DNA of 56,181 bases from a virus. The notes under the pieces are model-generated. The model was given only the letters and a program-made list of their open reading frames with translations, ran no database searches and was not told the DNA's origin. Positions 4,826-30,766 of this stretch are shown piece after piece. The stretch lies in the IMG/VR virus record IMGVR_UViG_3300010412_000017, positions 1-56,181 of that record. One strand, written 5' to 3'. Position numbers and translations under genes: made by a program. How positions within the stretch are numbered: the first letter of the stretch is position 1; the number at the start of each line of letters is the position of its first letter.

Positions 4826-5206
4826 TTACACCCCCCCTTGAGCCGCCTCCCGTTCGATGATGCCCGCCAGGTCGCCCTGGCTCCTCGCCGAGGCCTCAAG
4901 CTGGCGCCGGTAGGCGTCGTAGGTGGCCTGGATCTCTGGCATGCCGTCGTTGATCCGGTCCAGGCGGATGGTGCTCGCCAGGTCGGTCAGCTGCCAGCCG
5001 TCCGGGGTCTCGGTCACGGTGGCCGGGTAGCGGTGCAGCGGGAAGGCGCCCGGCAGGGGCTCCAGCCAGTTGGCGGTTGCCAGGACCAGGTCGCCCTCGG
5101 TCTCGCCGGCGCCGACGATCAGCACCTCGAACTCGGGGCTGTCGGCGAAGGTGAGCCGCAGCCCGTGGGCGTTGGCCTCCTCGATCAGGTCGGTTGTCTC
5201 GCTCAT
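4826..5206 (-). CDS. Unknown small protein between the MuF-type gene and the scaffold
   Basis: This 126-residue acidic protein overlaps the end of the giant MuF gene by 4 bp (ATGA), so it is translationally coupled to it. It is a mix of strands (FEVLIVGAGETEGDLVLA) and a C-terminal helix (IQATYDAYRRQLEASARS). I do not recognise a family. Coupling raises the possibility that it binds the preceding multi-domain protein, for instance as a partner or immunity-like factor, but nothing in the sequence proves that. Confidence 0.6.
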   Translation of the reverse strand: MSETTDLIEEANAHGLRLTFADSPEFEVLIVGAGETEGDLVLATANWLEPLPGAFPLHRYPATVTETPDGWQLTDLASTIRLDRINDGMPEIQATYDAYRRQLEASARSQGDLAGIIEREAAQGGV

Positions 5207-8200
5207 GAGTATTTGGCCTCGCGGACGACCTCGTCCAGGGACCGGCCGTCAGGCCACTGAGTATACCCGTGTTTTTCCCGCAAGAAGCGGATAAACCGCG
5301 CCTTTCCGCCTTTCGGTACGATGAAGGCGTCGAAGTTGTCGAACAACGAGCTGCCGCCTTTCAGGATGGTCTCGTTGCTGCCGTTCCGGGCCGCCTGGCG
5401 CATCTCCTCGATGCTCGACTTGCGGTTGCGCAGGATGTAGGCGGTGGTGTCGGTGCGGCCGAATTTGTCGCCGTCGTAGCTGATGGCGTCCACCCTGGCC
5501 GCCTCGCGGGCCTTCCATGTCAGGCCGACGTGGCTCTCGGCGTTGTCCACGGTCTTGATGCGGGTAAAGAAAAAGTCCGCTCCGCCGGTGCCCAGGTCGC
5601 TTTCCGGGCTCATGCCCTTGGGGATGATGCCCAGGCGCAGCTTGTCAGTCGTCGGCGCCATGCGTCCGCCCGAGGACAGGATCTTGTCGATGCTCTCGAT
5701 GTAGCCGTTTATGCCGCTGCTGTCGTAGAGGTGATGGTAGAGGCGGTAGTCGCGCTCGAAGCGCGCCCAGCCGGGGTCGCCCAGCAAGTCGGCCCGGAAG
5801 CGGTGCACGCGCCCGGTCTCGAAGGCGCCGCGGCTACCGGCCGGGTCGTAGAAGCCGCTTTCCTCGATGTCGTAGCCCAGCTCACGGCTGATCCAGCTCC
5901 GCCCGATCTCGACGCGCTCCTCGGGGGTCTTGCCCTTGGCGATCTTTTTCTCGAAGTCGCGCCAGTTGGTTTTCCGGGCATAGGCCAGCTGGGTGAGGTA
6001 CAGCTCCTCCTCCATGGCCGCCGTCGGCAGGGCGGTGTCGATGCCGGTGGCCTCGTCCAGGGCCTCCACGGCCCGGTTGGCTGCCCCCACGTCCTGGCCC
6101 TTGACGCGGATCTCGACGCGGCCCCTCATGGCCGCCGCGGTGTTGCTGTCCCAGACGCGGATGGTGGTGCCGTCGGGCAGGGTGGTCTCGTAGGCCTTCA
6201 GGCCGGTGCTGCCGCGGTAGCCGCCGGCCTTCTTGGTGACGTGGCCGCGGCTGAAGTCGCCGGCATCGAACTCGGCGGCGACCGGGGTCCAGGTTGGCCC
6301 GGTCTGGCCGACCACCTTGGGCGCCGGTAGCTTGATGCCCGCAAAGTTGCCGCTGGTCGGCGGGGTCCACACCGCGGTCTTGCCGGATCCGCGGGCGGCC
6401 GCGGTCTCCAGGGCGTCCAACCATGGCTTGTAGTGGCGCTCCAGGTCGGCGCGCTGGGCCGTGGTGTAGGCGCCCTTGCGGATCAGGGCGGTCATGTCGG
6501 CGTGGGCCTTTTTCCAGGCCTCCAGGGCCGCCTGGACACGCTCGACGTCTTTTAGCTCCAGCGCCTCGCTGCGGTTGGCCCGGTAGGCGATCCCCTTGAT
6601 CGCGGTCACCAGCTTGTTGTCCAGGGCCTCGTGGTCCAGGCCGATGGCGGTGGTCTTGTTGGCGCTGACCGAGGCCTCGAACTTCGACAGCGCGTCGCCT
6701 CTGAGCTTCATGGTGGCGACCGTGTACTTGGCGCTGCCGGTGGTCTCGTGGTGGATCAGGATCTGCTGGTCCTCGATGGCGTCGTAGTCGCTGCGGATGG
6801 AGTAGCCGGTGGCGCGGGCGTTGGTCACGCGCTTGTACTCCTCGTTGCTGACTCGCTTGCCCAGGTCCGGGGGCGGCGGCGCCTTGGCCTCGCGCACCAG
6901 GTGCGGGTAGCGCTTCTTGAGATCGTCGCGGCGAGCTTTGAGGATCGTCGCTAACTTTTCACGCTCCGGCCTGGCCCGCGGGCCGTACTTCTCGACCAGG
7001 TCGTCGATCTCGCTGTCGGTGATGCGCACGATCTGGCTCACGCCGGCCTCGATCTTGGCCTCGGGGATGTCCTTGAACACCGCCGCGGCCTGCTTGTTGG
7101 TGCTGCCGTTGCGCAGGCTCTGCAGCTCGTCCACGGTCGTGGTGAAATTCGCGCCCTTGGCCGTGCCCTGGGCCCGGTAGCGAAGGCCGCCACCCACGTC
7201 GATGCGCAGGGCCCGGCCGGCAGCGGTCTTGGCGATGTTGTCGTAGCTCAGGCCGACGACGTCCCAGTCGGCCAGCCAGGCGTCGGCGGCGAAGCCCTCG
7301 TAGGTGCCTTCCAGCTTCGCCATTTTCTCGGCCCCGCCGGCCTTCTTGAGGCCCTCGATCCAGCGGCTGGCGACGCCGATCTTGCCGGCCCGGTCGCCGG
7401 CTGCCGCGCCCAGCTTGATGATGCGCATGTCCGGGGCCTCGATGCCGGCCAGGCGGTAGAGCTTGGCGGTGAGGACCTCGTTCAGCGCCACGTCCTCGCT
7501 GGCGGTGTACTTGACCAGCCACTCCTGGCCCGCCTCGTCCTTGAACACCGCGCCAGGGACCGATCCGCCGGGCTTTGGCTGGCTGTAGGTCCAGCCCTTC
7601 ATGTCGAGAACGGCGTCCACGTCCGCCTGGGCGGCGGCAGCGGCCTTTGCGGCCTTCACCTCGGCCTTGACCTCGGCCACCTCGGCGGCGGCCGCAGCGG
7701 CGCCCTCCTCGGCGACCTGGGTGACGACGTCCTTGAGGTCCTTGATCGCGCTGTCGGCCGACTTCTTGCCCTTTGGGCTCAGGAACTTGTAGGCCTTCTC
7801 CTGGGCCTTGGTGGGCTTGGCGCCGTAGGCGACGGCGTTAATGTAGCCGTCTACATTGTCGTTCAGCGCCTCGATCTGGTCGGTGAGGGCGGCCTTTTCG
7901 CTGGGCGTCAGGAAGTTGAACACCTCGCTCTGCTTGGGCGTCGGGGCCTCGCCCGAGACCAGCTTTTTCTTGTAGCCGGACAGGACCGCGCTCTTTTCGG
8001 CCTGGGCCTGGGCGGCGGAGGCCAGCTCCTTGGCCTTGGCGAGCTTGCGGTACGGGCTCAGGGTCTTGAGCACCGGGTCGGTCTCCAGGTCCTGCAGGGC
8101 CTTCGCCAGCTTGGTCTTGCCGGTCGGGTTGGCGAGGGTGTCGGCGATCTCCTCGGCGGCCTTGGCGTTGGCGGCGGCCAGCTCGGCCTGCTTGGCCGCG

Positions 8201-9834
8201 GCGGCCTGCTCGGCGGCCAGCGCCGCCTGGGCCTCGGCCTGCTTGATCTTGATGGCGTCGAGGACGTCCTTTTGCGCCTCGTCGGGCAGCGCCTCAAACG
8301 CCGCCTGGGCCTGGGCGCTCGGCTTCTTGCCCTTGGTCACCGCCTGCTTGTAGTGGGCCAGGTCAACCGACAGCTTTTTCTTGGCCGCCTTGGTGTCGAT
8401 CAGCTCCAGGAGCCCGACCGGGTCGGCCTTGCGCTGGCTGTCGATCCAGGCGCCGCCTTTCTGCTTGGTCAGGTCCTTGAGCGCGCCGTAGTGGTAGGCG
8501 CTGGGGGCCGTATCCTTGCCGGCGTAGGCCTTCAGCTGCTCCTGGGCGGCGCTTTTCTGCTGCAGCTTGGCCTTCTCCTTGGCTGCCGCGATGCGGGCGT
8601 CCAGGGCCTCCTGGGCGGTGATGGCGTCGGCCTGGGCCTTGGCTTGTTTCACATGAAACGTCGAGGAGGCGGCCAGGGCCTGCTGCTGGGCGGCCAGCGC
8701 CGCGGCCGGCAGGGCGGTGGCCGGTATGATGTCCTTGAGGCGTTCGGTCAGCTCCTCGACGGTCAGCGGGTTGCCGGTCTGGTCGATCAGGCCCTTAAAG
8801 TCGAGCTTGCCCTGCTTCCAGAGCGCGTACTTCGCCGGCGTCAGGGCGCCGCTGGTCAGGGCGTAGCCGGGCTCGGCCAGCTCCTTGGCGGCCAGCCAGT
8901 CCTCGTAGCGCACGCCCTTGGGAACCTGGCCGTCCAGGGCGCTGCGGGTGGCGGCGCCCGCGGCGTCGAGCTTCTTGGCGAGGCGTTTGCCCTTCTTGGT
9001 CGGGTTTTTCGCCAACTCCTCGAAGCTGTAGGTCACCGGCACCTGGGTGCTGCGGCAGTTCCAGTGCGCCGTCGGGCCGGGAAAGGTCACGCTATGGCCG
9101 ATGGGGGCGTAGGTCGTCGGGTCCCACATCAGGCCGTCGAGGCCCTTGCAGGTGTCGGTGGTCCGGCTGTCCAGGGTGCTCACCCACTTGATCGCCTTGA
9201 TCAGGTGGGCGTTCTCGGCGTAGGTGCGCAGCCGGGTCAGGTTGGCGACGCTGTTGACGCTCGTGCGCGCCAGGGCCTCGGCCTGGTAGCGCTTCACGTC
9301 CATGATCTTGCGCACGCGGTTCGCCAGCTGGCCCACGTTCTCGCCGGCCAGGGTCCCGAGGCGCATCTCGGTCCTGAACTTCTCGGCGGTGTCGGCCGCC
9401 TGCTTGGCCCACCACTCGCGGCTGGGGGCGCCCTGAATGAAGCCGTCGGCGACGATCTCCTGCAGCTGCTGGCGGTTCAGCGTCGGCAGCCCGAGGTTGG
9501 TCCCGATGGCGATGTTCATGCTGCCCGCGGCCAGGCCGGCCTCCATGGCTGCCAGCTTGGTCAGGGTCTTGTTGGTCACCTTGCGGGCGGTGCCGAAGCT
9601 CGACCCGATGATCCCCTGGGTTTGCTTGAGCAGGGCCTTGAGGCGCTGTTGCTGGTAGGCCGTAAGTTTCGGAGCTGTCGGATCGACGGCGTTGAGGCGT
9701 TTTATAAGGTCGCCCTCTAATTCCTTGAGGACCTTCAAAACGTCGGCGCGAACGGTGCCCTCCAGCTTGATGAGGTCGACCTGATGACCGATCAGCTGGT
9801 CCTGCAGGACAGCGTTCGCGCTCTGGGTTGCCAT
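5203..9834 (-). CDS. Giant MuF/SPP1 gp7-type head protein fused to a HipA/PI-kinase-like domain and a possible ART-like C-terminus
   Basis: This is the largest gene in the window, coding for 1,543 residues. Residues about 140-265 carry the MuF head-morphogenesis signature: ALARTSVNSVANLTRLRTYA, then KWVSTLDSRTTDTCKGLDG and HWNCRSTQVPV. Residues about 380-745 are Ala/Lys/Glu-rich helical stretches with repeated short modules (for example SGEAPTPKQSEVFNFLTPSEK against YGAKPTKAQEKAYKFLSPKGK). Residues about 747-925 look like a HipA/phosphoinositide-kinase-type fold: a Lys in WLVKY (775), DAWLADWDVVGLSYDNI with N866, and RIDVGGG with D879. Residues about 1360-1510 (LYHHLYDSSGINGYIESI, then DLGTGGADFFFTR and SNETILKGG) have the look of a DarT/ADP-ribosyltransferase-like domain; this is the weakest call. 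MuF proteins are usually 250-400 residues and some enter the host with DNA, so these extra domains may be injected effectors. Confidence 0.85.
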   Translation of the reverse strand: MATQSANAVLQDQLIGHQVDLIKLEGTVRADVLKVLKELEGDLIKRLNAVDPTAPKLTAYQQQRLKALLKQTQGIIGSSFGTARKVTNKTLTKLAAMEAGLAAGSMNIAIGTNLGLPTLNRQQLQEIVADGFIQGAPSREWWAKQAADTAEKFRTEMRLGTLAGENVGQLANRVRKIMDVKRYQAEALARTSVNSVANLTRLRTYAENAHLIKAIKWVSTLDSRTTDTCKGLDGLMWDPTTYAPIGHSVTFPGPTAHWNCRSTQVPVTYSFEELAKNPTKKGKRLAKKLDAAGAATRSALDGQVPKGVRYEDWLAAKELAEPGYALTSGALTPAKYALWKQGKLDFKGLIDQTGNPLTVEELTERLKDIIPATALPAAALAAQQQALAASSTFHVKQAKAQADAITAQEALDARIAAAKEKAKLQQKSAAQEQLKAYAGKDTAPSAYHYGALKDLTKQKGGAWIDSQRKADPVGLLELIDTKAAKKKLSVDLAHYKQAVTKGKKPSAQAQAAFEALPDEAQKDVLDAIKIKQAEAQAALAAEQAAAAKQAELAAANAKAAEEIADTLANPTGKTKLAKALQDLETDPVLKTLSPYRKLAKAKELASAAQAQAEKSAVLSGYKKKLVSGEAPTPKQSEVFNFLTPSEKAALTDQIEALNDNVDGYINAVAYGAKPTKAQEKAYKFLSPKGKKSADSAIKDLKDVVTQVAEEGAAAAAAEVAEVKAEVKAAKAAAAAQADVDAVLDMKGWTYSQPKPGGSVPGAVFKDEAGQEWLVKYTASEDVALNEVLTAKLYRLAGIEAPDMRIIKLGAAAGDRAGKIGVASRWIEGLKKAGGAEKMAKLEGTYEGFAADAWLADWDVVGLSYDNIAKTAAGRALRIDVGGGLRYRAQGTAKGANFTTTVDELQSLRNGSTNKQAAAVFKDIPEAKIEAGVSQIVRITDSEIDDLVEKYGPRARPEREKLATILKARRDDLKKRYPHLVREAKAPPPPDLGKRVSNEEYKRVTNARATGYSIRSDYDAIEDQQILIHHETTGSAKYTVATMKLRGDALSKFEASVSANKTTAIGLDHEALDNKLVTAIKGIAYRANRSEALELKDVERVQAALEAWKKAHADMTALIRKGAYTTAQRADLERHYKPWLDALETAAARGSGKTAVWTPPTSGNFAGIKLPAPKVVGQTGPTWTPVAAEFDAGDFSRGHVTKKAGGYRGSTGLKAYETTLPDGTTIRVWDSNTAAAMRGRVEIRVKGQDVGAANRAVEALDEATGIDTALPTAAMEEELYLTQLAYARKTNWRDFEKKIAKGKTPEERVEIGRSWISRELGYDIEESGFYDPAGSRGAFETGRVHRFRADLLGDPGWARFERDYRLYHHLYDSSGINGYIESIDKILSSGGRMAPTTDKLRLGIIPKGMSPESDLGTGGADFFFTRIKTVDNAESHVGLTWKAREAARVDAISYDGDKFGRTDTTAYILRNRKSSIEEMRQAARNGSNETILKGGSSLFDNFDAFIVPKGGKARFIRFLREKHGYTQWPDGRSLDEVVREAKYS

Positions 9835-26554: not shown

Positions 26555-26596
26555 CGTATGGCTATCTTAACGGGTGTTGCCGTTTGTTGACACCCT
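26555..26596 (-). promoter_or_regulatory. Candidate promoter/operator of the Ref-resolvase module
   Basis: Directly after a terminator and before the Ref-like gene lies an inverted repeat GGGTGT-N12-ACACCC (26572-26595). On the minus strand it is followed by TAAGAT, a possible -10 box. No good -35 hexamer is visible, so an activator or repressor acting at the inverted repeat is plausible. The evidence is position plus symmetry only. Confidence 0.35.
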
Positions 26597-26620
26597 AAAA
26601 AGGGGGCAAATTTGCCCCCT
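26597..26620 (-). terminator. Rho-independent terminator ending the early/replication operon
   Basis: A perfect 20-bp palindrome, AGGGGGCAAATTTGCCCCCT (26601-26620), is followed on the minus strand by five T residues (26597-26601). T residues are only on this side, so the direction is clear. It ends transcription after the 162-residue gene at 26645. Confidence 0.85.
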
Positions 26621-29241: not shown

Positions 29242-29949
29242 CTACTCGTTGGCTTCAGGCAAGTCCTCGGCCTGCTCCTCCGGCAGGTCGGTGCTCATCC
29301 CCAGCGTCGCCTTGATCTGGGCCATGGCTCGCATGCCCTTCTCGATGTCGCGTTGCTTGATCTCCGGCTGGGCCAACCGGACGGCGTCCGGTGGCGCGAC
29401 CGGCGGGAGCCGGATCGTTTTCCCGTGCTGCAGGGCCTCCAGCGTCGCCTTCCAGGCTTTCAGAAAGGCGGGCTTGCCCTGGCTTTCGCTCATCCGGCGG
29501 AAGGCCCACGCGCCGCCACAGGCCGTCACGGCGTGGTGAATGCCGCGGTGCCAGTATTCCCCGCGGCAGGCGGCCTGGTAGGCCTCCTCGGGCTCCATCA
29601 GCTTGTGGTCGGCGTAGTCGCCCAGGCACCAGGCGATGAACTCCGGCAGCTTGGCCGGGTGCTCGCGCCCGCTGGCGATGGCCTTACCGATGCCGCGCTT
29701 GATCTGGTAGTCGTTCAGCGGCGTCAGGGCCTTGATCCACATCGGGTTCGGCTTCTCGCCAAAACTCGCCGGCCAGAGGGTCCCGTAGGTCTGGGTCATC
29801 ACCACCCAGAGCCGCTTCATGCGCTTCTCGTGATGCTCCGCTGCCTGCTCCCGCTCGGCTTGCGCGTCGTGCCAGCTCTTGTTGGCAGTCCTCATCGTTT
29901 GCTCGCATCGCTCGCTCGTAGGGAGAAAGTCTCCGATCTGCTTGGCCAT
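29242..29949 (-). CDS. Replication protein P-like helicase loader
   Basis: The protein has 235 residues from the ATG at 29949, with AGGAGG six bases upstream. After a helical start, residues about 50-110 give the lambda-P-like block: W..M...YG..W (VVMTQTYGTLWPASFG), a helix with GIGKAIASGREHPAKLPEFIAWCLG, and a later GAWAFRRMSES. Lambda P delivers the host DnaB helicase to the origin-bound O protein. The gene follows an O-like initiator and its first 266 bp are shared with that gene in another frame. Confidence 0.68.
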   Translation of the reverse strand: MAKQIGDFLPTSERCEQTMRTANKSWHDAQAEREQAAEHHEKRMKRLWVVMTQTYGTLWPASFGEKPNPMWIKALTPLNDYQIKRGIGKAIASGREHPAKLPEFIAWCLGDYADHKLMEPEEAYQAACRGEYWHRGIHHAVTACGGAWAFRRMSESQGKPAFLKAWKATLEALQHGKTIRLPPVAPPDAVRLAQPEIKQRDIEKGMRAMAQIKATLGMSTDLPEEQAEDLPEANE

Positions 29950-30616
29950 GGTGCGCCTCCTGTTGTGGCTTGGTCTCATCGGTCCAGCGCTCGTGCCTCA
30001 GATAGCGAACGCCGTAGGGTATGTATTTCGGGTCTCGTGTCCCTTGGTGGATCTCCTCGTTCCACTGCCGGGTGTGCTCGATGATCTCGTCCGCCTTGTC
30101 GTCGAGGTGCTTTCGCTTCCAGACCTCCTTGGCCTGTTTCTTTTCCTCGCCCCTGGGGTAGAGCTTCCACCACGCCTCGAAGCGCTCGCCGGACCCCCCT
30201 GGGGGGGTAGGGGGGGTTGGTTCTATTACCTCGTTCTGTTTATTACCTAGTTCGGGGGGCAATTCGCCCCCCATAGGGGGGTCAATTCGCCCCCCCTGGG
30301 GGGTCACTGTGCCCCCCCTGGTCAAATTGTCCGCCCCCGGCATGCCGGCCCAGTAGGCCGGTCCCAGGGCCCAGGTTCGCCCGGTCTTGGTGTCGGCGTC
30401 CTCTGGCACCAGGTAGTCGCCCGCTTCCAGCTCACGAAGGGCCCGCATCACCGTCCGGCGGTCCATGCAGACCATGTCGCTCAGCGTCTTGACCGTGGGG
30501 TAGCTGCCCTCGCTCTTGTCCTTGTCGGTGAAATAGGCCACGGCCATCAGGACGAACTTGTCCCTCGGTGCCATCTTGATGTGCCGAAGGGCACGGCCGA
30601 TCTGCCAGTAGGCCAT
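29684..30616 (-). CDS. Replication initiator O-like protein (winged helix; origin inside the gene)
   Basis: I read this from the ATG at 30616, preceded by AGGAGAACC; an ATG at 30640 is also possible. It gives 310 residues. The N-terminal about 95 are a helix-turn-helix domain (RALRHIKMAPRDKFVLMAVA, SYPTVKTLSDMVCMDRRTVM, RALRELEAGDYLV). A Gly/Pro-rich segment (about 100-140) is encoded by the iterons, then a basic helical domain (FEAWWKLYPRGEEKKQAKE, typical of phage O/DnaT-like C-domains). The last about 88 residues overlap the P-like gene. O proteins bind iterons and recruit P and DnaB. Confidence 0.75.
   Translation of the reverse strand: MAYWQIGRALRHIKMAPRDKFVLMAVAYFTDKDKSEGSYPTVKTLSDMVCMDRRTVMRALRELEAGDYLVPEDADTKTGRTWALGPAYWAGMPGADNLTRGGTVTPQGGRIDPPMGGELPPELGNKQNEVIEPTPPTPPGGSGERFEAWWKLYPRGEEKKQAKEVWKRKHLDDKADEIIEHTRQWNEEIHQGTRDPKYIPYGVRYLRHERWTDETKPQQEAHHGQADRRLSPYERAMRANDEDCQQELARRASRAGAGSGASREAHEAALGGDDPDLRDPLAGEFWREAEPDVDQGPDAAERLPDQARHR
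30220..30341. repeat. Candidate replication origin: 22-bp iterons beside an AT-rich stretch
   Basis: Three copies with exact 22-bp periodicity start at 30254, 30276 and 30298, each of the form GGGGGG-(T)CAATTCG-CCCCCC; the third has CACTGTG in the centre. A degenerate fourth may follow at 30320. Each copy is itself an inverted repeat. A 34-bp AT-rich stretch (30220-30253) flanks them inside an otherwise GC-rich genome, and another G/C block lies at 30191-30218. The arrangement matches the lambda origin, which is also iterons plus an AT-rich segment within the O gene. Confidence 0.72.
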
Positions 30617-30766
30617 CGCTTGGTTCTCCTGTTGGTTCATTGTTGTGGTCCTCGCTATCGAGGGCGGCCTGCCAGGTTGCCCTGGTTGGCCGCCGTTGTG
30701 CAAGCCCTTCTCGTGGCTCGCTTTCTGAAACTCCCGGAAACGCGTCCCAGCGCGTCCATAGTCGTT

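Follow-up and report, generated by a model that had tools for sequence, protein, structure and literature searches.

A dense cluster of G/C-armed inverted repeats inside the gene for a putative replication initiator raises the question of what these repeats do, and whether a phage carries its origin of replication within the coding sequence of its own initiator. The locus is part of the IMG/VR virus record IMGVR_UViG_3300010412_000017, and the entire stretch of 56,181 bp that was analyzed is referred to as the window. Three tandem repeats, or iterons, at 30254–30318 lie beside an AT-rich tract at 30214–30253, both within a minus-strand initiator gene that is directly followed by a gene for a helicase loader. 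This site is very likely a phage replication origin of the lambda type, located inside the initiator gene. An initial annotation had proposed a lambda-like origin in an O-like gene, consisting of iterons and an adjacent AT-rich tract, and the family matches of initiator and loader, the array and the tract all bear this out.

Geometry of the iteron array

The array comprises three inverted repeats, each with a G6 arm, a core of 7–8 nt and a C6–7 arm, and all three follow the formula G6-(T)CA(A/C)T(T/G)(C/T)G-C6/7. The AT-proximal iteron 1, GGGGGGCAATTCGCCCCCC (30254–30272), has perfect 7-bp arms and was located in the sequence by position weight matrix (PWM) and repeat scans, while the repeat scan also returned iteron 2, GGGGGGTCAATTCGCCCCCCC (30276–30296), and iteron 3, GGGGGGTCACTGTGCCCCCCC (30298–30318). 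The initial annotation had described each unit as an inverted repeat with G6 and C arms, and this applies to all three, with C arms of C6–C7. It had further stated a repeat of exactly 22 bp, which is correct for the starts of the G6 tracts (30254, 30276 and 30298, spaced 22 and 22 bp) but not for the cores. These read CAATTCG, CAATTCG and CACTGTG, with spacings of 23 and 22 bp, since the AT-proximal copy has a 1-bp indel that leaves it one base shorter. A possible degenerate fourth unit, GGTCAAATTGTCCGCCCCC (30320–30338), is weakly suggested by inspection of the sequence; its C tract sits 22 bp from that of iteron 3, and it does not rank with the best PWM hits. Just one further good PWM hit was obtained, at 26601–26620; it was considered as an additional iteron and rejected, since a T run follows it on the minus strand as in a terminator. 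Note that the minus strand at 26596–26620 holds a perfect palindrome, GGGGGCAAATTTGCCCCC, followed by TTTTT, that closely resembles an iteron and is likely an intrinsic terminator.

When the entire window was scanned for direct repeats with periods of 12–60 bp, the array ranked second by strength among the short-period repeats, and all other strong ones had periods divisible by 3. The repeats are confirmed as real. Nine of the 23 G/C runs of at least six nucleotides in the 56-kb window crowd into only 125 bp (30194–30318), a density that might be expected if G/C tracts had simply been expanded by replication slippage and had no function. Mononucleotide slippage, however, does not create non-homopolymeric cores such as CAATTCG and CACTGTG, nor a regular phasing of 22–23 bp, and in relatives of the initiator the same linker holds arrays of quite different sequence. 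A functionless slippage product is therefore hardly credible.

Constraint on the DNA and the flanking AT-rich tract

As the array is translated, it might reflect selection on the encoded peptide, a flexible Gly/Pro-rich linker whose DNA is repetitive only through GGN and CCN codons in a GC-rich genome. A weak peptide repeat, RGGTVTP-QGGRIDPP-MGGELPP, is indeed encoded, and the linker is predicted to be disordered. We recoded linker residues 106–151 synonymously 20,000 times with the codon usage of the phage itself, and the observed repeat score of 33 was reached in none of these sequences, the maximum being 30. At least four perfect hairpins arose in 0.4% of the recodings, and none combined these with the repeat score. 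The rare codon GGG accounts for 6 of the 10 glycine codons in the linker, as opposed to 10% across 22 phage genes (binomial p = 2e-4). The failure of all recodings to match the repeat score and the excess of GGG therefore indicate that the repeat is held at the level of the DNA. The GAATTG/GAATTG cores are moreover read in different frames, and the period of the array is not divisible by 3. The earlier assertion of conservation at the DNA rather than the protein level was well founded, and the peptide explanation, now very improbable, is largely refuted. With homopolymeric arms, incidentally, Gly-Gly and Pro are still encoded after a frame shift.

The iterons are adjoined on the C-terminal side of the initiator gene, that is on their 3' side in gene orientation, by the tract at 30214–30253, a probable unwinding element. 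With 60% A+T it belongs to the top 0.08% of all 40-bp segments of the window and represents the maximum within 29–31 kb. The concept of regulatory sites within the gene, acting as operators or RNA hairpins in attenuation, autorepression by the initiator or termination instead of replication, has to be considered at this point. The single strand can fold into strong hairpins (z = -2.2 versus shuffled sequences), and a terminator-like G5/C5 palindrome is present in the same genome (26601–26618). On the transcribed strand, however, no T tract follows the iteron stems, whereas the position of the iterons, their phasing and the AT-rich neighbour fit origins. Although such sites are quite unlikely to be an alternative to an origin, autoregulation and origin function can coexist.

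Beyond the AT-rich tract an inverted-repeat scan revealed a second palindromic G/C block, ACCCCCCTGGGGGGGTAGGGGGGGT (30193–30217; C6/G7/G7), that was absent from the initial annotation and may contain additional half-sites. A repeat scan found CCCCCCTGGGGGG to be common to this block and to 30291–30303. The AT-rich tract could be bracketed by initiator sites on both sides, the iterons at 30254–30318 and the block at 30193–30217, and opening of the origin could be symmetric or could proceed by way of alternative cruciform or G-quadruplex forms, whereas the lambda origin is one-sided. The homopolymeric arms could in this case allow each G tract to pair with either neighbouring C tract. We regard this reading as a whole as unlikely. 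As an observation in its own right, the two G7 tracts in the block are a possible G-quadruplex former, and the lambda model does not explain the block.

An O-like initiator and its distant relatives

The gene that harbors the array (29684–30640, minus strand) encodes an O-like replication initiator of 318 amino acids, for which profile matches and an AlphaFold model indicate a winged-helix N-terminal domain, a disordered linker that holds the probable origin, and a helical C-terminal domain. Residues 8–262 match phrog_270, 'replication initiation protein' (E 8.9e-24), and HTH_36 is matched above the Pfam cut-off. The model is confident over most of residues 20–98 and 150–214, but the predicted local distance difference test (pLDDT) score drops below 50 over 105–137, and it is these iteron-encoded residues that form the disordered linker between the two domains. 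The designation as an O gene in the initial annotation is adequate for function and position, but does not extend to the family. No match to PF04492 (Phage_rep_O) was found at E 0.1, whereas the controls lambda O (6e-36) and PAJU2 (4e-19) did match, and a direct profile comparison with lambda O was negative at a probability of 0.3%. Single-sequence searches of the PDB returned no homologues for either the whole initiator or lambda O, and profile and fold searches with the initiator yielded generic winged-helix proteins only, of the MarR type or the N-terminal domain of DnaD. Judged by these profiles, the protein is an O by function and position only and belongs with phrog_270, outside PF04492.

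Directly downstream, and preceded by the Shine-Dalgarno motif AGGAGG, lies the gene for a P-like helicase loader of 235 amino acids (29242–29949, minus strand; phrog_109 'P-like helicase loader', E 1.9e-11). The same minus-strand region also encodes SSB, RecT and a YqaJ exonuclease. The initiator open reading frame (ORF) runs for 266 nt (29684–29949) over the start of the loader gene in another frame, and the overlapped initiator end, DLRDPLAGEFWREAE, resembles DLRPPLDGEFWREAEA, with which the initiator of a Pseudomonas alcaliphila prophage (L002/L092) ends and where the two ORFs overlap as well. Two genes may overlap here in different frames, or the resemblance may simply result from the conservation of P. 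Elsewhere in the window, a 1543-residue ORF (5203–9834, minus strand) matches head morphogenesis proteins over its first ~420 residues (phrog_241, E 1e-77), with little or no family match for most of the remainder.

The place of the array within the gene raises the question of whether other initiators are built alike. From at least 192 distant O-like genes that an alignment-based search of IMG/VR returned, 80 were retained, and 73 of these had ORFs of sufficient length. Significant tandem arrays were present in 41 of the 73, versus 7 of 140 other same-strand ORFs from the same loci, and all seven control arrays had periods that are multiples of 3, as expected of protein repeats. The layout is thus common to many relatives: among 68 distinct O-like genes there were 36 significant arrays, 30 of them with periods of 20–25 bp. 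Leaving out the array of the window, 12 of 35 significant arrays contained an inverted repeat within the top 5% of the null, where about two were expected. The 50 bp 3' of the array exceeded the gene mean in A+T content in 24 of the 25 arrays examined (p = 3e-6; two pairs are near-duplicates). The next gene encoded a DnaC-like or P-like loader or a DnaB-like helicase in six of ten loci examined, and in a seventh (L033) the best named match of the downstream gene was a primase/helicase. Across lineages the place and geometry of the array are constant, while the iteron sequences vary. Palindromic arrays of unrelated sequence were also seen in the same linker of the distant initiators L018 (1850–1925), L090 (3268–3352), L054 (3215–3307) and L074 (1730–1870), and these provide ready data for testing whether iterons and recognition helices change together.

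Comparison with known origins and weight of the evidence

The iterons of phage lambda are inverted repeats bound by dimers of the O protein, and once O is bound the adjacent AT-rich DNA opens (PMC5043065, PMC7466680). Four such iterons, spaced 20, 24 and 23 bp, lie inside the O gene with an AT-rich stretch after them, and their arms are of the TCCCTC/GAGGGA type around an A-rich core. The probable origin of the window shares with that of lambda its location inside the gene of the initiator, where the DNA-binding domain gives way to the C-terminal one, and G/C-rich inverted repeats with a period of 20–24 bp. The order of elements is also the same, from the DNA-binding domain through iterons and AT-rich tract to the C-terminal domain, with a P-like loader next. 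Differences are found in the number of clear iterons (three instead of four), the homopolymeric G6/C6 arms, the orientation of the operon on the minus strand and the extra G/C palindrome beyond the AT tract, which has no counterpart in the lambda origin as annotated. The AT tract reaches only 60% A+T in a genome of 66% GC, and the initiator is without detectable homology to lambda O. The characterization of the G6/C6 arms as an unusual design for iterons must be withdrawn, as the lambda iterons are also inverted repeats (PMC5043065, PMC7466680), with G/C-rich arms, and palindromic arrays recur in the relatives. The design is that of lambda with other letters, a good but ordinary example.

A likeness is also found in phrog_270-like initiators such as those of the IMG/VR locus L054, Pseudomonas phage vB_Pae_CF183a and Flavonifractor phage Cormatin, which combine an HTH_36-type N-terminal domain and a W/Y-P-K C-terminal domain with tandem iterons in the linker and, beyond these, DNA rich in A+T. 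L054 is nearest in style, with G-rich palindromic GGGGCAGGAGCTGCCCC iterons and a P-like loader next to the gene. The iteron sequences of this group vary from lineage to lineage, and units of the G6-CAATTCG-C6 type were found in no other IMG/VR record. In the iteron plasmid origins of the P1, RK2 and F type, phased initiator-binding repeats adjoin an AT-rich tract (PMC5043065). The phased repeats of the window adjoin one too, but each unit is palindromic and the array lies within the initiator gene. From these sequence comparisons, the site is very probably an origin of the lambda type that relies on another family of winged-helix initiators.

The following course is inferred, from binding of the initiator and its stoichiometry as dimers to the opening of the strands, the loading of the helicase and the resulting activity as an origin. 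Dimers of the O-like initiator would contact the three palindromes with their winged-helix domains, wrapping or bending the array, and the strain from this distortion would open the AT-rich tract at 30214–30253. The C-terminal part of the initiator, together with the P-like loader, would then recruit the host DnaB helicase.

Several observations weigh against an origin at this site or lend it no support. The initial annotation had expected it to stand out in the cumulative GC skew, but the window has a local minimum at ~34–38 kb and none at 30.2 kb. In lambda, analyzed as a control, a local minimum near 38 kb falls close to the origin at 39 kb, and the missing minimum at 30.2 kb is therefore mild negative evidence. 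No consensus match to a sigma-70-like promoter was found in 26–32 kb, although the promoter type of the host may differ, and origin-activating transcription in the manner of lambda is therefore unsupported here. A scan of IMG/VR for the exact iteron pattern (G6-CAATTCG-C6 units) returned no other record. Single-protein searches for close relatives in IMG/VR and bacterial genomes yielded only one relative, at 28% identity, which gave an identical match in each of the two collections and whose genome entry is named Pseudomonas alcaliphila; no close relative in which these exact iterons could be traced was found. In a nucleotide search of phages, the best 20 of 65 hits cover the ssb gene only. 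Finally, an ungapped scan detected no significant array in 32 of the 73 relatives. Note that irregular spacing masks some arrays in such a scan: PAJU2 has GTGCCGAAAACGGCAC repeats, yet scores p = 0.49.

The lambda-type origin proposed here gives a probable start of replication for a phage that is otherwise unplaced. A testable general rule is supported as well, namely that phrog_270-type initiators that lack detectable sequence similarity to lambda O seem likewise to hold their own origin, with iterons of 20–25 bp in the linker between the domains and AT-rich DNA after them. If this rule is true, initiator and origin would travel as one cassette, and origins would be predictable from the gene alone.
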